Shown here piece after piece: positions 750-16,621 of a DNA stretch of 64,000 nucleotides. The DNA lies in the NCBI GenBank assembly GCA_020402865.1, contig JADBYT010000008.1, forward strand, positions 1-64,000, written 5' to 3'. Numbering within the stretch: the stretch's first letter is position 1; every line of letters begins with the position of its first letter. Under the pieces are notes generated by a model. It ran no database searches. It saw only the letters and a program-made list of their open reading frames with translations, and was not told the DNA's origin. Made by a program: the position numbers and the translations under genes. Source of the stretch: Bacteroidota bacterium (GTDB lineage: Bacteria > Bacteroidota > Bacteroidia > Palsa-965).

Positions 750-1613
750 TTAGAAGTGCCAGAGATCATGCTCATACACAAAGATGTCGTTCTTAATACG
801 CTCCGACTCAAACAAGGCATCAAGACCTTGTGTGTAGCCACGGATGGTACGGTCAAACACGTTGGTTTCTTTGTGAATGTAGCTCTGGAACATACGCTTC
901 CAGAAAATATCGTCGAGTGAACGGCGCTCGGCATCAGACTTGGTGTTGTACACCTCGCTGCGGGCAAATACCGGACGGCACTGCGGGAAGTAAACCCAGA
1001 AAAGGGCCTTGTAACCTACCACCTCGCCGCTCGACGGGTCTTTCTTTTCCTGAAGGGGACACAAACCAAGGATGCGCACATCCATCACCGAACGCTGTTT
1101 ATCGAAGAACCAGTCTTCTTTAATCCAGTAGGCCTTTACATCAATCGAGGTAAGTTCCGTACGAACCGGCGAAATAATGTAAGTGCCCGGGTTGTTCGGG
1201 TCTTCAGTTTGCTGTGTCGAGTCAACCTGCACGAAAAGATCCTGCAGCTGGGCTTTCGACATTTTCACCTGAAACTCATCGTCAAGTGCCGCATTGTCGA
1301 AGGCAAAGATATCGCCATCAAGCAGTGCCTTTTTGATTACGTCAAACAGGCTTTTGCGGTTGTTGATCGGTGTTTCAGGATAGTACAGCGGGTGGTTGAA
1401 CTTCTCACGAAGTTCAATGGTACGCCATACGCGCTTCGACCACATCACATCAGCCTCGCGGAGATGGGTGTAAGGAATCGGGCGGCGGTTGATCGTATTT
1501 TCCTTGTTGTAGATCTGATCAGGGAAAGTAGGATCAAGTACCTGAGCATGACCGATCTGCGCAAAAAATGCTGCGGCAACAATCAGTAACAAAGCAAACT
1601 TGATGGTTCTCAT
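750..1613 (-). CDS. gldN: type IX secretion system protein GldN/PorN
   Basis: A 287-residue periplasmic T9SS component with an N-terminal signal peptide (cleavage expected after GHAQ, about residue 24). In the family GldN/PorN forms the outer-membrane-associated ring with the GldK/PorK lipoprotein and contacts GldM/PorM. Family features visible here are the RPIPYTHLREADVMWSKRVW stretch near residues 44-63, the conserved central ISPVRTELTSIDVKAYWIKEDWFFD-type region, and the usual size. The start has a good Shine-Dalgarno site (GAAGGAGGATTC) just upstream. It is the last gene of gldKLMN, 25 bp after gldM, and is followed by the terminator at 701-730. Confidence 0.96.
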   Translation of the reverse strand: MRTIKFALLLIVAAAFFAQIGHAQVLDPTFPDQIYNKENTINRRPIPYTHLREADVMWSKRVWRTIELREKFNHPLYYPETPINNRKSLFDVIKKALLDGDIFAFDNAALDDEFQVKMSKAQLQDLFVQVDSTQQTEDPNNPGTYIISPVRTELTSIDVKAYWIKEDWFFDKQRSVMDVRILGLCPLQEKKDPSSGEVVGYKALFWVYFPQCRPVFARSEVYNTKSDAERRSLDDIFWKRMFQSYIHKETNVFDRTIRGYTQGLDALFESERIKNDIFVYEHDLWHF

Positions 1614-1638: not shown

Positions 1639-3291
1639 TTACTTCACTTTAATATTCACACCAGGGATTTTACGGAGCGATCCGTCGGGGCCCTGAACCG
1701 TAATCTGTTCAAAGAACACTTTCCCGCCGGGCTTCGCGCTGGCAAGAAGTGTTTTCATTTCTGGTGTTAGCGCCGGACCGTTGGCTTTTTTATCCACGAA
1801 TACGCCGTTTACGTTCATCGACATCACGAACGATACCACTTTGAACGAAAGGTCGAAATCGAAGTTTTCCATACGGGCAAAGATACCGCTGGCTGCATTG
1901 AGCTCACCTTTGTTCATCTGTCCGTCGCCTTTGATGTTGCCGAGGTAAGCTACCGGATCCGGTACACGCTTAATACGGAACTCGAAGCTACCCATCGACT
2001 TGCTGGCGCCGTTCAGTTTGGCGTTTACGCTGATGGTTGCTTTTGCACCTTGTGATACACGTACAATATAATCACCCGGCTTACCGGCAGAGGTAATTGT
2101 TCCGCCTGTCATTGAAGGTGTAATATCGCTGGGAGCCACACCGGCAGCTGAAATACTAACCGGATTGTCCACACCAATGTAAAACACGTTCATTTTGGTG
2201 GGTGATACCGCAGCCGAAGGCGCAGCTACCATGTACTCCGATTTGAACGGATACGAAGAGTAAGTGCCATCGGGCTTTTTCACACGGATAAGACCTGACC
2301 ACTGCTGCAAACCGGTTGAACCGGCGCTCACTTCGTAAAGGCTCATGCCGTCAGCACCAGGCTTCACGGTAGTTGAGTCAATCGGACCAATAGGCTTGCC
2401 GGTTACAGTATCCACTTTGCACAGCCATACAGACGGAGCCTGTGTGGAGTTGTAAGCAGCTACAAGGATGTTGGCGGTGTATTTCTCACCGGTAAGTACA
2501 TAGCTTGTAGGAGCAATTACACGTGCAGCCACAGCATCAAATTTGAAGTCGTTTTTGTTGATTGAGCTGAGAAGCTCGTTCACCACGTCGCCTTCGGTAT
2601 TTTTGATGTCATTCTGAATACGTGCAAGGTTGGCAAGCATGGCCGATACGGGCATGTGGTAGAAATTGTACCATTCCCACGAAACCATTTTCTCGTTATC
2701 CTTTGAATACTGATCGGGCGTATCAAGAATGCTCAGGTTTTTACCAATTGAAGCTTTGGCCTTTTCATCAAGCTGCCCCAGCAGAAACTTCTTGTATTCA
2801 GCAAGTTTCTTTTTGAGCACGGCAGAAGGCTTGGTCGCTTCAATTGAGGCCGGATCATCACCAATCATAAAATTGGTGGGGATATCATAATCATCGGGCT
2901 TGGTAAGCCACTTCGCACGCAGCGTATCACCGGATTTAATCTTAGCCGGATCTTTATCGCCGGGAGCAAGACCGAATTCAACCTGAGCTTTAAGCTCTGC
3001 TTTAAGATCCTGAATGTATTTGAAGAGCTTGTTCGCTTCTTCTTTTACCTTCATGGCTTTGTCGTAAAGCGGTTTGGCCTTCTTTTCATCGTTAGCCATG
3101 GCTGAAGCAAACTGCTGATAAAGCAGACCGTTCTTGCCGTCAATACCACGGTTGGTATTAACCAGACCTTCTTCAATTACGATGAAGGAGTTGATAATCT
3201 CTTTCGAGATATTAAGCGCGAGAAGCGCGGTCAGCACGAGATACATCATGCCGATCATCTTCTGACGCGGAGTTTGTTTTCCACCTGCCAT
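1639..3291 (-). CDS. gldM: type IX secretion/gliding motor protein GldM
   Basis: A 550-residue protein starting MAGGKQTPRQKMIGMMYLVL, the very conserved GldM N-terminus, with a single membrane helix at about residues 12-33 and a large periplasmic remainder. In the family GldM/PorM dimers pair with GldL in the inner membrane to form the proton-driven T9SS motor and reach through periplasmic domains D1-D4 to the GldK/N ring. Length fits (roughly 510-560 residues). A strong Shine-Dalgarno site (AAGGAGG) precedes the ATG. It sits between gldL (52 bp upstream) and gldN in one transcription unit. Confidence 0.97.
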   Translation of the reverse strand: MAGGKQTPRQKMIGMMYLVLTALLALNISKEIINSFIVIEEGLVNTNRGIDGKNGLLYQQFASAMANDEKKAKPLYDKAMKVKEEANKLFKYIQDLKAELKAQVEFGLAPGDKDPAKIKSGDTLRAKWLTKPDDYDIPTNFMIGDDPASIEATKPSAVLKKKLAEYKKFLLGQLDEKAKASIGKNLSILDTPDQYSKDNEKMVSWEWYNFYHMPVSAMLANLARIQNDIKNTEGDVVNELLSSINKNDFKFDAVAARVIAPTSYVLTGEKYTANILVAAYNSTQAPSVWLCKVDTVTGKPIGPIDSTTVKPGADGMSLYEVSAGSTGLQQWSGLIRVKKPDGTYSSYPFKSEYMVAAPSAAVSPTKMNVFYIGVDNPVSISAAGVAPSDITPSMTGGTITSAGKPGDYIVRVSQGAKATISVNAKLNGASKSMGSFEFRIKRVPDPVAYLGNIKGDGQMNKGELNAASGIFARMENFDFDLSFKVVSFVMSMNVNGVFVDKKANGPALTPEMKTLLASAKPGGKVFFEQITVQGPDGSLRKIPGVNIKVK

Positions 3292-3342: not shown

Positions 3343-4215
3343 TTAGCGGCGAACATTCATTGCGGTGAGCATATTGCCGTACACGGTATTCAACTGCTCG
3401 AGGTTTGTAGCGAGCGTGTTGATTTCCTGACGGTACTTCTGAGTATCGTCGAGTGATTCGTTGAGGTTGCTCAGTACACGGCCAATTCCTTCGTAAAGGG
3501 TGTTGGTGGCTTTGAGGTGCTCGTTCGAACCCTGCAGCTGAAGTTCGTAGGCTGCGTTGAGAGCCGACAGGTTCTTGGAAATTTTACCAAGCTGATCGTT
3601 GTAGTTCTGCGACTCCTCGTTGGCAAGTGCAAACGACTCAAGCGTTTTGGCTGCACGGCCATAAGCACCGGCAAGCTGATCAACTGAACTGCTCACGCTT
3701 TCGTTGGCGCGCTCATAAGCCTGAGACAACGCAGATACGGTGCCCGAAGCCTTGTTCATATTGTCAGAGAACTCTTTAGAAGCCACGCTGGCATCAGCAA
3801 TTTCTCCAAGTTTCTGGGTGCTGTCGCTCAAACGCTGGAAGCCCTGACCAAGACTTTCGAGAAGCTCTGGTCCTATTTTCGCTTCTTCAAGCATCTTGTC
3901 TAACTGACCGGTGATTGAATCACCTTCTTTCGAAGCAGAAGCAAGTTCACGTCCACGTCCACCTTCCTCGTCATTAATTCCGGCAAGTTCAGGATAAACA
4001 AGCGTCCAGTCAACGTCTTCATGCAAAGGTTCAAATGCAGAGAAGAAGAAGATTACGGCCTCCGTTCCAAGTCCGATTACAAGCATAGGACCTGCAAAAG
4101 GCCAGTGCATGATTTTAAAGAGAGCTCCTACGATTACAACTGCTGCGCCAAAACCGTAAAGCTTGGCCATGAAGTTTTTCCACTTCTTACTTGCAAAGAG
4201 ACTGTTACCGCTCAT
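3343..4215 (-). CDS. gldL: type IX secretion/gliding motor protein GldL
   Basis: A 290-residue protein with two adjacent N-terminal membrane helices (about residues 18-36 and 40-62; motif FKIMHWPFAGPMLVIGLGTE), the hallmark of GldL. An acidic cytoplasmic region with long predicted coiled coil follows (repeated LSQAYERANES / LSALNAAYELQLQ heptads). The glutamate in the second helix (TEAVIFF) matches the membrane-embedded acidic residue implicated in proton use by the GldLM motor. The long coiled-coil tail is closer in size to PorL of Porphyromonas (about 300) than to Flavobacterium GldL (about 215). It lies between gldK and gldM; no strong Shine-Dalgarno site is visible. Confidence 0.96.
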   Translation of the reverse strand: MSGNSLFASKKWKNFMAKLYGFGAAVVIVGALFKIMHWPFAGPMLVIGLGTEAVIFFFSAFEPLHEDVDWTLVYPELAGINDEEGGRGRELASASKEGDSITGQLDKMLEEAKIGPELLESLGQGFQRLSDSTQKLGEIADASVASKEFSDNMNKASGTVSALSQAYERANESVSSSVDQLAGAYGRAAKTLESFALANEESQNYNDQLGKISKNLSALNAAYELQLQGSNEHLKATNTLYEGIGRVLSNLNESLDDTQKYRQEINTLATNLEQLNTVYGNMLTAMNVRR

Positions 4216-4279: not shown

Positions 4280-5689
4280 TTAGAGGGCGTCGTCTTTTGA
4301 ACGACCAAGGAAAGTCATCACGCAGCGGAAACCCACATAACATTTTGCGGTATCCTGATATTCATAGGTGCGTGAGCTGTTCTGCAGATAGAATCCAACG
4401 TCTTTCCAGGAACCGCCGCGGATTACTTTGCGGCACAGTACAGGTACATTTTCATCCTGTACAGTGGTTTCGTACTCGTAGTTGGTGTTCAAATCGTGCA
4501 TAAAGTCATAAGCAGACTCGTCGAAAGCGTTTGAGGTCCACTCAGCAGCATTACCCGCCATGCAATAGAAGCCCCAGTCGTTCGGGTTGTAAGCGAAGAT
4601 ATTTACAGTGTGGAAACCACCGTCGTCGATATACGAACCGCGCATCGGCTTAAAGTTACCGAGGAAGCAGCCACGGGCATTACGAATGTAAGGACCGCCC
4701 CAGGGATACGGGCTGAGCTGCAGACCACCACGTGAGGCGTATTCCCACTCTGCCTCGGTAGGCAAACGGAAATCCTGAACCGTAGCTTCGTCGTTGCTCG
4801 AAAGGAAGTTGTTGAGCAGCATGGTACGCCATACGCAGAACGCGCGGGCCTGACGCCAGGTTACTCCAACCACCGGATAATCGTCGTAAGCCGGGTGCCA
4901 GAAATACATGTTGGTCATCGGCTCGTTAAACGAATAGGTGAAATCGTGAATCCAGGCAAGTGTGTCGGGATATACGTTAATGATATCCTTAATAATGAAC
5001 ACACTGCGATCAAGACCGGATTTACCATTTACAGTATAGCTTCCCTGTCCGGTAGGCCACTGACGGCCGTTCTGGCCGGGGGTGGTTTTGGGGACAAAAC
5101 GGTTTGCCTTCTTGGCAGCCGTTTTCAGGTCGATACGGTAATACTCATAAATGAGTTTACGCGTATCAATTTCCTTGCGGCCCCAGAAACGCTCGTTGGC
5201 AGGAAGATACATGGGATCAAGGGCTTCCTTGTATTCCACGGTGGTTTCACCCCAGTCCACTTTTTCGGCACGGTTCAGCGGCGGCGGATCAGGATAATCA
5301 TCGCCAATGTAAACAGGGCCATTGTCTTCATAGCCACGGAAATCTTCTTCGAGAATGAGGAATTCCTCAAACTCCTCGGAGAGCAGACGACGGGCGATGG
5401 AGTCCCTTACATCATATACAAACTGACGATACTCGTTGTTCGAGATCTCAGTCTGATCCATGTAAAACGCCTGCAATGAGATCGTTTTGGACTTAGTGGT
5501 GTGTGCATACGGAATGTCCTCATCGCTGGGGCCCATGTTGTAGCTGCCCATCGGGCAATACAGCATTCCATACGGGTCGAACGGATACCATCCCGGACGA
5601 TCTTGTACGCCCATCAGCTGTCCATTCTCCGTATTACACGAAGATGCAACAAGCATCGTTATCGAACCCAGAAACAATAGTCGTTTCAT
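4280..5689 (-). CDS. gldK: type IX secretion lipoprotein GldK/PorK
   Basis: A 469-residue lipoprotein. The open frame extends 40 codons further upstream, but the start is placed at 5689: it gives a lipoprotein signal (MKRLLFLGSITMLVASSC, lipobox Cys at residue 18) and is preceded by AGGAGG. The body is a formylglycine-generating-enzyme (FGE-sulfatase) fold used structurally in T9SS: IYAHTT-linked MDQTEISNNEYRQFV, FRLPTEAEWEYASRGG, WTSNAF and VIRGGSWKD motifs appear in order. In the family it pairs with GldN in the ring under the outer membrane and is not thought to be an enzyme. First gene of gldKLMN. Confidence 0.96.
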   Translation of the reverse strand: MKRLLFLGSITMLVASSCNTENGQLMGVQDRPGWYPFDPYGMLYCPMGSYNMGPSDEDIPYAHTTKSKTISLQAFYMDQTEISNNEYRQFVYDVRDSIARRLLSEEFEEFLILEEDFRGYEDNGPVYIGDDYPDPPPLNRAEKVDWGETTVEYKEALDPMYLPANERFWGRKEIDTRKLIYEYYRIDLKTAAKKANRFVPKTTPGQNGRQWPTGQGSYTVNGKSGLDRSVFIIKDIINVYPDTLAWIHDFTYSFNEPMTNMYFWHPAYDDYPVVGVTWRQARAFCVWRTMLLNNFLSSNDEATVQDFRLPTEAEWEYASRGGLQLSPYPWGGPYIRNARGCFLGNFKPMRGSYIDDGGFHTVNIFAYNPNDWGFYCMAGNAAEWTSNAFDESAYDFMHDLNTNYEYETTVQDENVPVLCRKVIRGGSWKDVGFYLQNSSRTYEYQDTAKCYVGFRCVMTFLGRSKDDAL

Positions 5690-5702
5690 TTTGCCTCCTT
5701 TA
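5687..5702 (-). promoter_or_regulatory. Shine-Dalgarno site fixing the gldK start
   Basis: On the minus strand CTAAAGGAGGCAAA directly precedes the ATG at 5689. This canonical site together with the lipobox 17 codons downstream outweighs the longer open frame that reaches 5809. Similar AGGAGG sites precede gldM and gldN, which suggests strong translation of this operon. Confidence 0.75.
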
Positions 5703-5896
5703 GTTTCCCTTTGTAAAGTAGTTTCCTTTTCAGGTGTTCCTTTATTAAAAACGCTGGCAACGTTTCCCAAATTGCCCTCATCATGCAGAAAATCATCATG
5801 TGCCTCCACATGATGACTTCTACATATATGAAATCGTTTTTACGAAGATAATGTCTTTTTGTTACTTAATGGTTAGTTTCCGATCAGGCGCCCAAA

Positions 5897-6889
5897 TTAA
5901 TCAAAGATTCGGACAGAACCATGACCCTCACGAACTGTTTTGATAACGATCGGGATACAATAGTTTACAAACAGCTCGAAAGAACCATTATTATAGTCAT
6001 TCAGGCGTGAAGTAGTAAAATCGTATGCAAAACCGATTTTCAAACCTGCATCCGGGTTATCACCCACCTGCTTCTGAAAACCAATCATCGGGCATATCGC
6101 ATCCTGGAAACGGTAAGAAAGACCACCCCAGAACTGATTGTTATATACCATAAGTGCATTAATATCGAACTGAGTAACCGTAGCGTCTGATTTCACGAGG
6201 AAAGACGGACGGAGTTCCCAGTTGCCAAGCGGGAAGTTCATACCACCGGTGAGGAAGTAGTGACGGGCCAGCTTGTAAGCGAGTGAGTGAGGTGTTGTAC
6301 CAATAGTTACGCTTCCGTCGTCAATAGTCGAAGCCGGGAGGTGGGTGGATGAAGCGCCGAACCACATGTTCTGGCGCTGGAACCAGATACCAAAGCCCAT
6401 ATCGAAATTGGTTTTCTTGATCAGCGGGGGGATAGAGCCGTCCTGCTGCCAGTTGGTAGTGGCCAGCCACTGCTGACTTGAGCCCTGCGGGCCTACGCGT
6501 TTGCTGAGCGCGCCCAGTTCGAGACCGATGCCGAGGGTGCTTCCGCCATTCTCATAACCGCCTTTAATCGGAATATGGAATGAATAAGCTGCACGGTAAG
6601 CCATATTCTGCTCGAAACCGAGCTTATCATACATTACGTTAAGGGCAACGCCGCCTCTAAGTTTCGGCAGGAACATGTCGCCGGAAAATACACCACTCTG
6701 GGGTGAACCGTCAAAACCGGCCCACTGCTGGCGGGCAATACCCGAGAAACAGAGTGCATGACGGATGCCGGCGTAGCCCGGGTTCATGAACATTTTATTA
6801 AACATGAACTGGGTAAACTGCGGATCCTGCTGCGCCGAGGCAGTGAGTGCAAATACCGCAAATGCAAGCGTAGTAAGGGTTTTCTTCAT
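5897..6889 (-). CDS. PorP/SprF family type IX secretion outer-membrane protein
   Basis: A 330-residue beta-barrel protein. The start is set at 6889, where a clean signal peptide begins (MKKTLTTLAFAVFALTASAQQ); 35 further in-frame codons upstream do not look like protein. The mature N-terminus, DPQFTQFMFNKMFMNPGYAG, is the diagnostic PorP/SprF opening, and LSYRFQDAICPMIGFQ plus a C-terminal strand pattern complete the family. These proteins sit in the outer membrane, link to the T9SS core, and some are devoted to particular cargo. It lies directly upstream of gldK, as in many Bacteroidota. Confidence 0.93.
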   Translation of the reverse strand: MKKTLTTLAFAVFALTASAQQDPQFTQFMFNKMFMNPGYAGIRHALCFSGIARQQWAGFDGSPQSGVFSGDMFLPKLRGGVALNVMYDKLGFEQNMAYRAAYSFHIPIKGGYENGGSTLGIGLELGALSKRVGPQGSSQQWLATTNWQQDGSIPPLIKKTNFDMGFGIWFQRQNMWFGASSTHLPASTIDDGSVTIGTTPHSLAYKLARHYFLTGGMNFPLGNWELRPSFLVKSDATVTQFDINALMVYNNQFWGGLSYRFQDAICPMIGFQKQVGDNPDAGLKIGFAYDFTTSRLNDYNNGSFELFVNYCIPIVIKTVREGHGSVRIFD

Positions 6890-7022
6890 AGGTCGCAAGT
6901 GTTTTGCCACACGTTTTCCTGTGTTAATAGTACTCAGGCGGTGGCTAAGATAGTTATTCGTTTTGATTATCCAAGTATTTTTCAACGTTTCCATGTTCGT
7001 TTTTCTTTCCGGGGTTCGGTTT

Positions 7023-8210
7023 TCAACTCAGCTTTTGAAAAGTCTGCCACCAGCGGTCGGGCATTTCCTCGCTGCAGGCCACTTCGTAGTCATTGTAACT
7101 GCACGGCACCAGCGCATGCCGTTCGAAACGTAATTTCTGATTGGGCGGATAGGGCACCTCCATCCACCAGCGGTCGCTGCGGGAGCTTTTGTAAAACACA
7201 ATTTCGTGCTTGTGATCCTTCAGGAAAACCCTGAAACGGGTGTAATCGGTTTTGTCGGTAAACGGGAAATCCTGTTTCCGGTTATAAAAGCCATCGGCAA
7301 AGCACCATACCATTTGCGCGGCGAGGTGAGCGGTCTGGCCGCGAAAATCAAATGCCGGGTTTATTTCGTAGATGCCAAACGAGCTGAGCTTATCGCTGAT
7401 ACCGGCATACCGGGCCAGGCGGCAGGCTTCATCGCCGGTAAAGCCGTTGGGGGTGGCATTGGCGTTGCCGGGTGCTTCGCCCAAACGCACCGCACCCATA
7501 TCAAAGCTGATCAGATCGGCATTGCGGATTACCGGTTCGGCCAGTTCGGGGGCGCTGCGCACCTGCCCGAGGCGGTGCACATCGAAATTCAATTTACCCA
7601 TCAGCTCCACCGACGATTGTTCGACGAAATAGGTCTGGTAGCCGAGGTTGCTGAAATTGAACAGGAAATTGGGCTGGTGCAGAATAATCCGGCTCAGGTA
7701 CGAACTGCTGTTCAGTTCATCACCCGAATCACCGATATCGAACATGGGATCAATGGCCAGCAGGTTTACCGTTTGCTCAATGGCTTCGTAGGCCAGATAT
7801 TGGGCGTAGGTTAAATCCTGTCCCCCGCCAAGAATAATGGGAATGATATTTTGCCGGAGCAGTGCCCCCATTACGGTTTTCAGGGCGTAATCGGTATCGG
7901 CCGGTGTATGCCCGGCATTGATATTGCCGAGGTCAATCATGTGCAGCGGCCAGTGGCCGGCATGCAGGCGGTAGAGGTATTCGCGTACCGTATCGGGCGC
8001 CATTGAACAGCCGTCGTTGCCCGGTGTGCGGCGGCCTTCGCATACACCAATGAGCGCCATTTTTGCGCCTTCGTGTGTGGGGTAGCCGTTTTCGGAGGTA
8101 TGAATACGCATCAGACTTCCGAACTGGGAGGCCTGATAAGGCCGCCCGCCCGAGATCCGTTCAAAATCGACCGGCGTGAAAAAGTCTGAATAGTCTGTAG
8201 CGATTGACAT
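7023..8210 (-). CDS. arginase-fold (formimidoylglutamase-like) protein, probably without the metal site
   Basis: A 395-residue cytoplasmic protein with the ureohydrolase fold order: LGGGQDLTYAQY (127-138), LLAIDPMFDIGDS (150-162), LISFDMGAVRL (233-243). Arginases, agmatinases and formimidoylglutamases use six ligands from GGDHS, DAHxD and SxDxDxxDP for two manganese ions. Here the first His is Gln131, the second His is Met156, and the second Asp of the last motif is Gly239; Asp154, Asp158 and Asp237 remain. A binuclear manganese site is therefore unlikely and the usual hydrolase label is doubtful. It sits between topA and porP/gldK on the same strand. No His-degradation genes are nearby. Confidence 0.85.
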   Translation of the reverse strand: MSIATDYSDFFTPVDFERISGGRPYQASQFGSLMRIHTSENGYPTHEGAKMALIGVCEGRRTPGNDGCSMAPDTVREYLYRLHAGHWPLHMIDLGNINAGHTPADTDYALKTVMGALLRQNIIPIILGGGQDLTYAQYLAYEAIEQTVNLLAIDPMFDIGDSGDELNSSSYLSRIILHQPNFLFNFSNLGYQTYFVEQSSVELMGKLNFDVHRLGQVRSAPELAEPVIRNADLISFDMGAVRLGEAPGNANATPNGFTGDEACRLARYAGISDKLSSFGIYEINPAFDFRGQTAHLAAQMVWCFADGFYNRKQDFPFTDKTDYTRFRVFLKDHKHEIVFYKSSRSDRWWMEVPYPPNQKLRFERHALVPCSYNDYEVACSEEMPDRWWQTFQKLS

Positions 8211-8317
8211 GAGATGCTGTTCTGATGGTTATAACACAAAGATGGAGAAAAGATACAGCCCGCCGGGTTGGCGGGCTGTATGAGATATTGTAAACCGGAT
8301 GTTGAAAACGTGTGCGG

Positions 8318-10750
<2,433 letters not shown>

Positions 10751-10994: not shown

Positions 10995-12431
10995 ATGAAC
11001 GAAGTAGAAAAAGTGATCGACGAAACCCGCCAGGGTGAAGCACTCATGCTCGACGGCCAGGCCGAAACCGGAACACGCAAGCTGTTTCTGGAAAGTTATG
11101 GCTGCCAGATGAATTTTTCTGACAGTGAAATTGTGGCGTCAATCCTGAAAGATCAGGGCTACACCACCACAAAAGACTATACCGAGGCGGATGTAATTTT
11201 TGTAAACACCTGCGCCATCCGCGAAAACGCCGAACAGCGCGTGCGCAACCGCCTGAGCGAGTTTAAAGCCGCCAAGCGAAACAAGCCCGACATGGTGGTG
11301 GGCGTACTTGGCTGCATGGCCGAGCGACTCAAGCATAAATTCCTCGACGAGGAAAAGATTGTGGACATTGTGGTGGGGCCGGATGCTTACCGCGATTTGC
11401 CCAACCTGATCAGCAAAGTGGAAGGCGGACATAAGGCAGTGAACGTGATCCTCTCGAAGGAAGAAACCTACGCCGATATTACCCCTGTGCGCCTTGACAG
11501 CAACGGCGTTTCCGCCTTCATCAGCATTATGCGCGGGTGCGACAACATGTGCTCGTTTTGCGTAGTGCCGTTCACCCGTGGCCGCGAACGCTCACGCGAC
11601 CCTGAAAGCATTGTGGCAGAAGCCCGCGATCTTTTTGCACGCGGCTACCGCGAGGTTACGCTGCTCGGTCAGAATGTGGACTCGTACCTCTGGGCCGGGG
11701 GCGGATTGAAAAAAGAAATTCTTACCGACGAACAGCGTGCCGCAGCTGTGAACTTTGCCCGACTGCTTGAAATGGTTGCCCTTGTGCATCCTGACCTGCG
11801 CATCCGTTTCAGTACTTCGCACCCGAAAGACATGACCGACGAGGTGCTGTACACGATGGCGAAGTACGACAACATTTGCAAATACATTCACCTGCCTGTG
11901 CAAAGCGGCAACAGCGAAGTGCTCGAGCGCATGAACCGCGGCTACTCACGCGAGTGGTACATCAGCCGCATCGAGTCCATCCGCCGCATCATGCCCGATT
12001 GCGCCATCAGCACCGATGTAATTACCGGTTTCTGCGGCGAAACCGAAGAGCAGCACCGCGAAACAGTTTCGCTCATGGAAATCGTGAAATACGATTTCGC
12101 ATACATGTTTGCGTATTCCGAGCGCCCCAAAACCATGGCCGAGCGCCAGTTTGAGGATGATGTGCCGGAAGAAGTAAAAAAACGCCGCCTTACCGAGATT
12201 ATCGACATGCAGCAAATACATTCCGAGCAACGCACCAAAGCGCAGGTTGGAAAAGTGCACCGCGTACTCATCGAACACACCTCCAAACGCGACGAGGATA
12301 AATGGATGGGCCGCAACACACAGAACACCGTGGTGGTGTTTCCGAAAGGAAATCATAAGCCCGGTGAGTATGTGAATGTGCTGGTGGATCGCTGCACGAA
12401 GACGACGTTGATTGGAACGGTGGTGGAGTGA
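10995..12431 (+). CDS. miaB: tRNA-2-methylthio-N6-dimethylallyladenosine synthase MiaB
   Basis: A 478-residue radical-SAM methylthiotransferase that adds the 2-methylthio group to i6A37 of tRNAs. All six cluster-binding cysteines are visible: Cys37, Cys73 and Cys107 in the N-terminal UPF0004 domain, and the radical-SAM CxxxCxxC at Cys182, Cys186 and Cys189 ([10 protein letters not shown]). A TRAM RNA-binding domain forms the last 65 residues or so. The start at 10995 is chosen because the promoter at 10928-10959 lies within the first codons of the longer frame. It heads a plus-strand run; a toxin-antitoxin pair begins 13 bp after its stop. Confidence 0.96.
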
Positions 12432-12444
12432 AAACCAAACCAAA

Positions 12445-12729
12445 ATGACACGTAACGAACTGAATAATCTAATCATTACAACACTCAAACCCTATCAGCC
12501 AAGTATGATAGGGCTCTTTGGTTCGTATGCACGCGGCGAGGAGCGTGAAGACAGTGATATTGACTTATTGATTGATATACGAATGCCCATCACGCTTTTT
12601 GATCTGATAAAACTGGAAGAGGAATTATCGAAAAAAACCGGAAAACGTTTTGATATTGTTACACTGGCTTCAATTCATAATTCCAGACTAAAAGAATATA
12701 TTTTTAAAGACTTCCAATCACTGATATGA
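12445..12729 (+). CDS. mntA: MntA-type nucleotidyltransferase antitoxin
   Basis: A 94-residue minimal nucleotidyltransferase. The signature GSX10DXD is exact: Gly26-Ser27, then Asp38 and Asp40 (GSYARGEEREDSDIDLLID). In characterised MntA/HepT pairs the antitoxin adds AMP groups to a tyrosine of the HepT toxin and so silences it. The start at 12445 is preferred to an ATG 11 codons upstream that would overlap the end of miaB. It overlaps hepT by 4 nt (ATGA), typical of a tightly coupled pair. Base composition is clearly more AT-rich than the flanking miaB and sigma-54 regulator, suggesting acquisition by transfer. Confidence 0.92.
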   Translation: MTRNELNNLIITTLKPYQPSMIGLFGSYARGEEREDSDIDLLIDIRMPITLFDLIKLEEELSKKTGKRFDIVTLASIHNSRLKEYIFKDFQSLI

Positions 12730-13070
12730 CTATGAAGGATGATATGATTTATATTGAACATATCCTTGATGCGATTAACCAGATTCTTTTATATACAGAA
12801 CAGGTTGAAAGGGATGACTTCCTGAATGATAGGATGCGACAGGATGCAGTAATAAGACAATTTGAGATAATGGGAGAGGCCACAAAAAATATTTCTTCAG
12901 ACTTTACTGAACAGTATCCTTCAATTGAATGGCGATACATGGCAAAAATGAGAGATCGATTAATTCATAATTATTTTGGAGTGGATAAAAGAATTGTGTG
13001 GGAAACTGTTAAGTCTGATTTGCCCCGACTGCACAAGGAAATCACTAAACTATTGCCGGGTCAATTATGA
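12726..13070 (+). CDS. hepT: HepT-type HEPN ribonuclease toxin
   Basis: A 114-residue all-helical HEPN-domain protein. The HEPN catalytic motif RX4HXY is present as Arg76-x4-His81-x-Tyr83 (RDRLIHNY); the tyrosine is the residue AMPylated by MntA in studied systems. The length fits the family. It is translationally coupled to mntA through an ATGA overlap; an ATG two codons later (12732) is a possible alternative start. Catalytic residues are intact, so the toxin is probably functional and neutralised in cis. It is AT-rich compared with its neighbours. Confidence 0.92.
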   Translation: MTMKDDMIYIEHILDAINQILLYTEQVERDDFLNDRMRQDAVIRQFEIMGEATKNISSDFTEQYPSIEWRYMAKMRDRLIHNYFGVDKRIVWETVKSDLPRLHKEITKLLPGQL

Positions 13071-14929: not shown

Positions 14930-16621
14930 ATGAACGCCAAACTCCTCACATCGTGGCTGAATGCCCCCGAAACACTGGGCCGCGAAGCGGGTGCACAACT
15001 CGATGCGCTGACGCGGACATTTCCGTATTTCCAAACCGCGCAGTTGCTTTACATCAAAACACTGCACAACGAAAACAGCTTCCTCTACAACAACCAGCTG
15101 AAAGCGGCCGCCGTGTATGCTTCCAACCGCAGGATGCTGTATGAACTCATTACACGCAAAGCCCCCGCACCCGCACTTACCGAAACTACACCCTTAGCCG
15201 AAACTCCGGCACCCGCCATTGCAACTGCGCCCGAACCCGAACAGGACACCGTTACCACGCCCGAACCGGCCGCCGAACAAACTTCGCCCCCGGCCCAAAT
15301 GCCCGTGGCTGACGAAAATTTTCCGGCCGAAACTCCGGTACAGGAAAACGAAATCATTCATCCCGACTTCCCCAAAAAACTTTTTGCCGGAAACGATGAA
15401 TGGGAAGCCGGCATGATGCGCCAGCTTCAACTCCTCCACCACTGGCGCAATCAGCCGGAAATAATTAAACCGGTTCAGCCACAGACGCCGGAAACAGCAA
15501 ACACCCCGAAAGACGAAACGCCCGCCGTTACCGAAACGGCAGTAAACGAAACAACATCAGCCACCGTAAACAACGCCCCTACTGCGGCCGACGAAATAAA
15601 CACACTGCTTTACGTGCTGGCCGAACCTTCGGACTGGGACGATTTGCCCGAAAGCACGGTGGAAGAGGAAATTACAGCCGAAGACAACGCCACCGAACCC
15701 GCCACCTGGCAGGTGCAGCCGGTTGATGAGGCCGACCTGACTGTAAGCGAAGTAATAATACAACCTGCTGCCGAAGTCCCGGCCGATGAGGTTGAAATAC
15801 CCGTCATAACCGCCCCCGACCAGCTCGAACTTCCGGCCACACTGCCCGCCGATCCGGTAGAACAACTCATCCTTGCCGGCGCTGTGAACGCCAGTATAAC
15901 GCAGGAAGTTGACGATCACTGGCCCTCGCCCGAAGAACTGCAGCCACGCAAAACAGCAGAAGCTGTTGTACCGGTGGTTTCGACAAGCTCAACCTCCGGT
16001 ACAACCGAAATTCCGATTCCCGCAGCACATAGCGGCGACTCAACCACCGGCGCAACAGACAATACAACAGTGGTTTCAACCAGCACAGCCACAGAAACTA
16101 CGGAAACACTTCCGGTGGCTGAGCCTGATGAAACCACCAACGAACTGAGTTTCAGCAGCTGGCTGAAAAAACTGAACAACGCGGCTCCAGCGCCCGAACC
16201 TGCAGCCGAAACAATCCAACCCACTGAGCGGGAAACAAAGTCTCCCGAAACAGTTGTTTCACCGCAAATTACTACGGCCGAAACAGAAGCAGTTGCACCA
16301 GCCCCCGATCCGGAAACCGAAAATACGCCCCCGGCTGAAGAAGTTATTCCATCCGGAAAGCAGCAGATTATCGACAAGTTTATACGCGAGGAACCGCGCA
16401 TCAAGCCCAATAAAAACAAGTTCTACAACCCTGTAAACATGGCCCGCCAGAGTGTACAGGAGAGCGATGATTTCATTACCGAAACCTTAGCCAGAATTTA
16501 CGTAAAACAGGGCAATTTTTCGAAGGCAATACGGGCCTATCAAAAATTGAGTTTGAAGTTTCCGGAAAAAAGCAGTTACTTTGCAGCCCTTATTGAAGAA
16601 CTGAAGCGAACACCTAAATAA
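14930..16621 (+). CDS. conserved protein with disordered P/T/E-rich middle and TPR-like end
   Basis: A 563-residue protein with three parts: a helical N-terminal block (1-75, [20 protein letters not shown] and [12 protein letters not shown]), a low-complexity acidic Pro/Thr/Glu/Ala region of about 400 residues, and a C-terminal tetratricopeptide-like helix pair ([34 protein letters not shown]). There is no signal peptide or membrane segment. Proteins of this layout recur between lptE-like and secG genes in Bacteroidota, but I know no assigned function. The middle region contains a REP-like palindrome at 15970-16000 translated in frame. It is 15 bp from the previous gene and 14 bp from secG, so probably one operon. 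Confidence 0.8.
15970..16000. repeat. REP-like palindrome inside a coding region
   Basis: Outer arms ACCGG/CCGGT and GGTT/AACC pair around a core TTCGACAAGCTC, giving a 31-nt imperfect hairpin. The core TTCGACAAGCTCAACC strongly resembles short dispersed palindromes seen in many bacterial genomes. It is read in frame in the disordered part of the 563-residue protein, giving VVSTSSTSG, so insertion was tolerated. Only one copy was noticed in this window. Confidence 0.55.

Follow-up and report, generated by a model that had tools for sequence, protein, structure and literature searches.

A Bacteroidia-specific arginase-fold subfamily with a broken metal centre, often encoded beside the type IX secretion genes

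In a Bacteroidota genome, the gene between topA and the genes of the type IX secretion system (T9SS) encodes an arginase-fold protein that very probably no longer works as a ureohydrolase. The name ARG is used here for this pseudo-ureohydrolase (7023..8210) and for its subfamily, in which one half of the binuclear metal centre is broken in every member. As the best explanation, although with restrained confidence, we regard ARG as a cytoplasmic pseudoenzyme that binds protein, does not act as a ureohydrolase, and has a role associated with the envelope or the T9SS. Taken separately, a protein-binding or scaffold role is reasonably probable, and a functional tie to the T9SS is tentative.

The gene, its subfamily and the metal-ligand positions

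The window, which is the whole stretch of 64,000 nucleotides that was analysed, contains the following features around ARG:

750..1613, minus strand, gldN, downstream of ARG
1639..3291, minus strand, gldM, downstream of ARG
3343..4215, minus strand, gldL (238 bits)
4280..5809, minus strand, gldK (552 bits)
5897..6994, minus strand, porP/sprF-type T9SS membrane protein (T9SS_PorP_fam, 221 bits), downstream of ARG
7023..8210, minus strand, ARG, 395 residues, ATG start, no internal stops
7026..7283, minus strand, C-terminal domain of ARG (residues 310-395) with the motifs RWWMEVP, RHxLVPCSY, and EEMPDRWW (alignment A3)
8253..8281, minus strand, terminator-like hairpin between topA and ARG, 12 pairs, 8 of them G-C
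8318..10750, minus strand, topA, DNA topoisomerase I, upstream neighbour of ARG

Gene calls and profile matches agree with the initial annotation, which had placed ARG between topA and porP-gldKLMN on the same strand. The true start of porP/sprF is probably Met36 (codon 6887-6889), as judged from its signal-peptide-like beginning, and this start leaves a gap of 133 bases to ARG. In the ARG sequence a signal peptide is not apparent. Because of the hairpin, ARG is maybe read together with porP-gldKLMN and not with topA, but a terminator consensus scan of the window was at chance level (four found versus 4.0 expected in shuffles, the hairpin at 8253..8281 having the longest stem). Elsewhere on the plus strand, the window encodes a MntA-like nucleotidyltransferase paired with a HepT-like protein (12412-13070), an arrangement typical of toxin-antitoxin systems, which follows a miaB-like gene, as well as a 563-residue Ala/Pro/Thr-rich protein (14930-16618) and a 152-residue protein (199-654), both without Pfam match. 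Another contig of the genome encodes a further GldM (338 bits; G000:C12:12749-14341, plus strand), perhaps part of a second GldKLMN-type motor.

PF00491 matches ARG at residues 50-304 with 86.3 bits (Pfam gathering cut-off 22), which makes the protein a member of the superfamily. The arginase fold covers residues ~17-313 and is followed by a family-specific C-terminal domain (~313-395). An AlphaFold2 model built from 42 sequences reached a pLDDT of 90.0 and a pTM of 0.91. This predicted model has the three-layer alpha/beta/alpha arginase fold, with Z-scores of 27.9-37.0 to arginases, agmatinases, and formiminoglutamases, and its top solved matches, from Trypanosoma cruzi formiminoglutamase, superpose with Z-scores of 36.9-37.0 and an rmsd of 1.9-2.0 Å over 276-278 residues. 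Fold and gene are thus intact, as had been supposed. Metformin hydrolase chains and formiminoglutamases rank highest in the Foldseek search with the model, and the first hit is 8x3g_E from a metformin hydrolase entry. For the C-terminal domain alone, neither a Pfam nor a PDB sequence match was found at E-values up to 10. Modelled separately, it consists of four strands followed by two helices, and its best Foldseek match (E 0.63) is not significant. With a pLDDT of only 78.6 for this model, a new fold cannot be concluded from the lack of a match.

The phylogenetic tree comprises 105 sequences, namely 91 ARG members, 11 HutG-like outgroup proteins, and three paralogues from the window genome with intact ligands. 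All 91 ARG members are found on one side of a branch with a support of 100, and their tree broadly follows the family labels. Across a phylum sample of 395 genomes, all listed matches that span the C-terminal domain fall in the 98 genomes of the class Bacteroidia, and those listed for the other 297 genomes end at about position 323 of the 389 profile positions or earlier. ARG is therefore a monophyletic subfamily with its own C-terminal domain, seen, among the matches listed, only in the class Bacteroidia. The subfamily is conserved under purifying selection, as the intact gene implied. Between the window and its nearest relative dN is 0.225 and dS 3.8, with similar values in other pairs, and because dS is saturated in this and most other pairs the dN/dS ratios are only indicative. 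A sequencing or frame error can be dismissed given that the gene is intact in dozens of relatives, and a strain-specific decaying gene is ruled out by the selection and the family-wide ligand pattern described below.

Three of the six metal ligands have been lost from the ARG protein of the window. The assignment to A and B sites follows the scheme of the arginases. The codons concerned are:

7818..7820, minus strand, Gln131, replacing the first-motif His (A site)
7743..7745, minus strand, Met156, replacing the second-motif His (B site)
7494..7496, minus strand, Gly239, replacing the second Asp of the third motif (B site)

Asp154, Asp158, Asp237, and Glu282 are retained. These replacements had been read correctly from the single sequence, and they turned out to be part of a family-wide pattern. 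Scanning of genome contigs provided 45 relatives. Alignment A1 contains 41 of these 45 loci and the window (L026, L034, L041, and L046 were left out), and 43 loci together with the window give 44 full-length rows. In these rows, position 131 is Gln in 38, Asn in four, and His in two; position 156 is never His and shows 11 residue types; and position 239 is never Asp but Ser in 41 and Gly in three. Asp is found in all 44 rows at positions 154 and 237 and in 42 rows at position 158 (Asn in two).

Adding relatives from the phylum survey extended the set to 93 rows, including the truncated L041. The short L046 and the divergent L090, L091, L092, and L119 (at most 107 bits) were dropped, the motifs of the latter four being equally eroded or missing. 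Position 131 is then Gln in 71 rows, His in 13, Asn in eight, and Asp in one. At position 156, where 15 residue types occur, four rows have His, and Asp239 is present in only three (L093-L095), which lost the other ligands. None of the 93 rows keeps all six ligands; 73 rows keep three of them, 14 rows four, two rows two, and four rows a single one. Removing the duplicate genes L060 and L063 leaves 91 non-redundant members. A strict B site (D154, H156, D237, and D239) is complete in none of them, and an A-site-like tetrad (H/Q/N131, D154, D/N158, and D237) is kept in 87, although in its strict H-D-D-D form in only ten. This one-sided erosion is a clear and testable pattern. The loss of the manganese site that had been proposed initially thus holds for the B site of every member and not for the A-site-like set, which persists in most. 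Among the 346 columns ranked by conservation across the 91 members, position 156 is 321st, and D154, D237, and D158 are 25th, 34th, and 53rd, respectively. None of the six metal ligands belongs to the 16 most conserved columns (R76, D93, G95, G100, G128, Q192, F209, E225, R229, G256, G270, W302, G307, F339, W348, and C370).

Association with the type IX secretion genes

Synteny of ARG with porP-gldKLMN is widespread. At the 95 loci analysed, one of which belongs to the HutG-like outgroup (L100) and some of which end before the neighbour becomes visible, topA is found directly upstream in 60 and porP or gldK directly downstream in 60, with both flanks present in 54. The median gaps are 40 bases between topA and ARG (often below 10 or overlapping), 157 bases between ARG and porP, and 199 bases between ARG and gldK. 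Where ARG and gldL are both present, they are at most 8 kb apart in 43 of 89 genomes of the class sample, 58 of 101 Bacteroidales, and 81 of 110 Flavobacteriales. Families f2, f3, f4, f9, and f10 have ARG away from gldKLMN beside varied genes, such as those for RmuC, S13 and M28 peptidases, HepT-like proteins, and an ABC permease, and polysaccharide genes as identified by eye. No common theme was found among the neighbours outside the topA-gldK arrangement. In one locus (L113), a HepT-like gene (7110-7514) is located three bases upstream of the ARG homologue. The most eroded homologues, L093-L095 of family f4, are encoded next to a cluster of polysaccharide export and glycosyltransferase genes, with topA close by in L094 and L095.

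Co-occurrence was analysed in three overlapping samples, the class Bacteroidia sample sharing genomes with those of Bacteroidales and Flavobacteriales. Among the 98 Bacteroidia genomes, 89 encode both ARG and GldL, five GldL alone, one ARG alone, and three neither (Fisher p 0.0014, relatedness ignored). In 148 Bacteroidales, where eight genomes with weak matches only (at most 51 bits) were counted as lacking ARG, it is present in 101 of 137 GldL-positive and in none of 11 GldL-negative genomes (p 1.4e-6, relatedness ignored). In 146 Flavobacteriales, the numbers are 110 of 117 and none of 29, counting G593 with its sub-threshold GldL match as GldL-negative. Thus, ARG is absent from GldL-negative genomes in 3/4, 11/11, and 29/29 cases, in total 43 of 44 over the three overlapping samples. 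However, one family with genomes of 0.3-0.6 Mb accounts for 19 of the 20 GldL-negative Flavobacteriales listed, and the co-loss counts are therefore not independent events. A wide occurrence of the subfamily in genomes without T9SS, which the initial annotation had named as evidence against its reading, was not found across the three samples.

The association does not hold strictly in either direction. GldL-positive genomes without ARG amount to 5 of 94 in the class, 36 of 137 in the Bacteroidales, and 7 of 117 in the Flavobacteriales sample. A search with the C-terminal domain in all 46 distinct genomes of this kind and in two GldL-negative ones gave no match, while the control (G000) was matched. 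The searches for SprA and PF00491 covered 80 class genomes, namely all 98 except 18 from a single genus (f5 g6). SprA is above the cut-off in 74, five of which lack ARG, and ARG is kept in three of the six SprA-negative genomes (G002, G269, and G359). G359 has retained ARG without SprA, GldL, and GldM, whereas G002 from the same genus encodes GldL and GldM; the ARG branch lengths of both are equal (0.30 and 0.30). The one-contig genome G002, with GldL and GldM but without SprA, hints at a GldLM motor without a T9SS translocon. The core genes for GldKLMN and PorP-SprF adjoin ARG in many genomes, but, unlike the core, ARG is not strictly co-inherited, being neither present in every T9SS genome nor absent wherever SprA is absent, and lacks an apparent signal peptide. 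A strict T9SS or gliding component is therefore ruled out. Because ARG is kept without T9SS and T9SS exists without ARG, the tie is statistical, although co-loss is far commoner than its opposite. The role in T9SS or gliding suggested at first agrees with the recurrent synteny and the absence of ARG from nearly all GldL-negative genomes, but that of a specific part of the system does not agree with the T9SS genomes lacking ARG and the SprA-negative carriers.

The most serious alternative is that ARG is a housekeeping pseudoenzyme unrelated to T9SS. Its position would then be ancestral gene order, and the co-loss would arise because lineages that are reduced or adapted to a host lose genes in general. 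The SprA-negative carriers, the many T9SS-positive genomes without ARG, the variable neighbours outside the topA-gldK arrangement, and a tree that broadly tracks the family labels would all fit. The alternative is weakened by the Bacteroidales, where the 11 GldL-negative genomes, all without ARG, are spread over nine families and have sizes of 1.2-5.1 Mb, versus ARG in about three quarters of the GldL-positive ones, and we consider it rather unlikely.

Comparison with known ureohydrolases and the residual metal site

The name formimidoylglutamase (HutG), already suspected to be wrong, is not supported. The TIGR01227 equivalog model (NCBIfam) scores 101 bits against ARG at a cut-off of 229.15, so that the name is not earned. 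Of 30 A2 members, 28 are matched by this model at E-values up to 0.001 (best 8.6e-31). Of the six binuclear-centre ligands of HutG, half are present in the window and at most four in any of the 93 rows, and the neighbours of ARG are topA and porP-gldKLMN and not a histidine-utilisation cluster. HutG proteins (B. subtilis 3m1r, T. cruzi 4mxr/4myn, and V. cholerae 1xfk) have the fold of ARG residues ~21-313 in common, with a Z-score of 37.0 and an rmsd of 2.0 Å over 278 aligned residues for 4myn and a Z-score of 34.5 for 3m1r_C. By sequence, 3m1r is the nearest solved structure (E 9e-14), and the DLGNI-like and APG motifs align. ARG differs from HutG in having no complete B site, an extra C-terminal domain of ~80 residues, and its place beside topA and gldKLMN.

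The best outgroup found consists of HutG-like proteins from non-Bacteroidia Bacteroidota (L100-L109 and L111), which score 110-159 bits with the ARG family profile. Unlike ARG, all 11 retain the second-motif His together with both last Asp, and they have no match to the C-terminal domain. All six ligands are present in seven of them, and the other four have Asn at position 131 (three) or 158 (one). As aligned, B. subtilis HutG 3m1r also has Asn in place of the first-motif His. The change at position 131 alone is therefore not diagnostic, in contrast to the changes at 156 and 239. In the window genome, the six ligands are complete in each of the three further PF00491 genes. One of these paralogues (L004, 1468-2523, minus strand, 351 residues), with a weak score of 70.7 bits to the arginase model and all six ligands intact, is likely a member of another ureohydrolase subfamily.

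As judged from the retained A-site residues, some metal chemistry is possible in ARG. The protein could thus still be an enzyme, in which a mononuclear A-site metal bound by H/Q131, D154, D158, and D237 catalyses a different hydrolysis. The persistence of the A-site-like tetrad speaks for this, but its first-motif residue is variable, 26 of 93 rows have Asn or Gly instead of E282, and the distant members L093-L095 lost D154, D158, and D237 and, like L089, most of their ligands, while the gene was retained. Further erosion was thus tolerated after the base of the subfamily. This speaks against a metal being essential throughout the subfamily, most members of which retain what may be a single-metal site. 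A catalytic role is therefore improbable. About equally speculative is a Bacteroidia-specific regulator that discarded the B site, senses a single metal or a metabolite through the A site, and links this state, by means of the new Trp/Arg-containing C-terminal domain, to how the gldKLMN motor and other envelope machinery are assembled or synthesised. Such a regulator would explain why ARG persists in a few T9SS-free genomes.

It is harder to imagine ARG as a metal-free subunit that serves to cap or stabilise an active paralogue with ureohydrolase function. There is precedent in metformin hydrolase, whose metal-free arginase-fold subunit works through the active one (PMC11271267). In this enzyme, MetCb is proven to act as a pseudoenzyme partner, and its clade has mutations at three to five of the six ligands (PMC11271267). 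MetCb/MfmB (8x3g, 8ryi, and 8snf) resembles ARG in combining a ureohydrolase fold with eroded ligands (PMC11271267). Subunit B of metformin hydrolase is also among the PDB sequence matches of ARG (8ryi_C, E 2.8e-6), the first Foldseek hit is a metformin hydrolase entry, and the window genome does contain three intact PF00491 paralogues. However, these are located on other contigs, and, in contrast to MetCb with its adjacent active MetCa, ARG has no PF00491 paralogue next to it in the window and no second match to the ARG profile in the loci listed. In seven of 72 ARG-positive genomes (G099, G138, G214, G261, G359, G363, and G379), ARG is the only PF00491 match, which makes an obligate partner from this superfamily unlikely and led us to reject an obligate active paralogue. 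A functional pair of topoisomerase I and ARG, suggested by the short topA-ARG gap, is similarly far-fetched given the hairpin parting the two genes in the window, the 35 of 95 loci (some truncated) without topA directly upstream, and the usual loss of ARG with GldL, whereas topA is expected in every bacterium.

Proposed role and meaning for the Bacteroidia

We favour ARG as a protein-binding pseudoenzyme with an accessory role. ARG would be a vertically inherited, Bacteroidia-specific subfamily that split from a HutG-like branch, and its binuclear centre would have been broken once, through loss of B-site ligands, before the subfamily spread. Selection appears to keep the fold and the A-site-like acid cluster, perhaps with one structural metal ion, together with Q192, E225/R229, G256, W302, and the added C-terminal domain rich in invariant Trp and Arg. 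ARG would then not hydrolyse guanidino or formimino substrates. Its place of action would be the cytoplasm, where it would bind a protein or serve as a scaffold responsive to a small ligand. The pathway it serves may support the T9SS or the envelope, and ARG would be an accessory rather than a core component.

Literature searches, which covered neither most subscription journals nor bioRxiv, found nothing on T9SS with formimidoylglutamase or on Fjoh_1852, the presumed tag of the Flavobacterium johnsoniae neighbour. Passages found on topoisomerase, gldK, and T9SS contained nothing on the ARG gene, and those on T9SS with arginase were unrelated; given the scope of the searches, absence from print is not shown. 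PMC12635249 mentions neither "arginase" nor "topA".

If ARG is not tied to the T9SS, it is still a widely conserved protein, and its default enzyme name may lead to errors when histidine and arginine metabolism are reconstructed. If it is, a system studied for gliding and for periodontal disease would have a cytoplasmic accessory that is so far unlisted.
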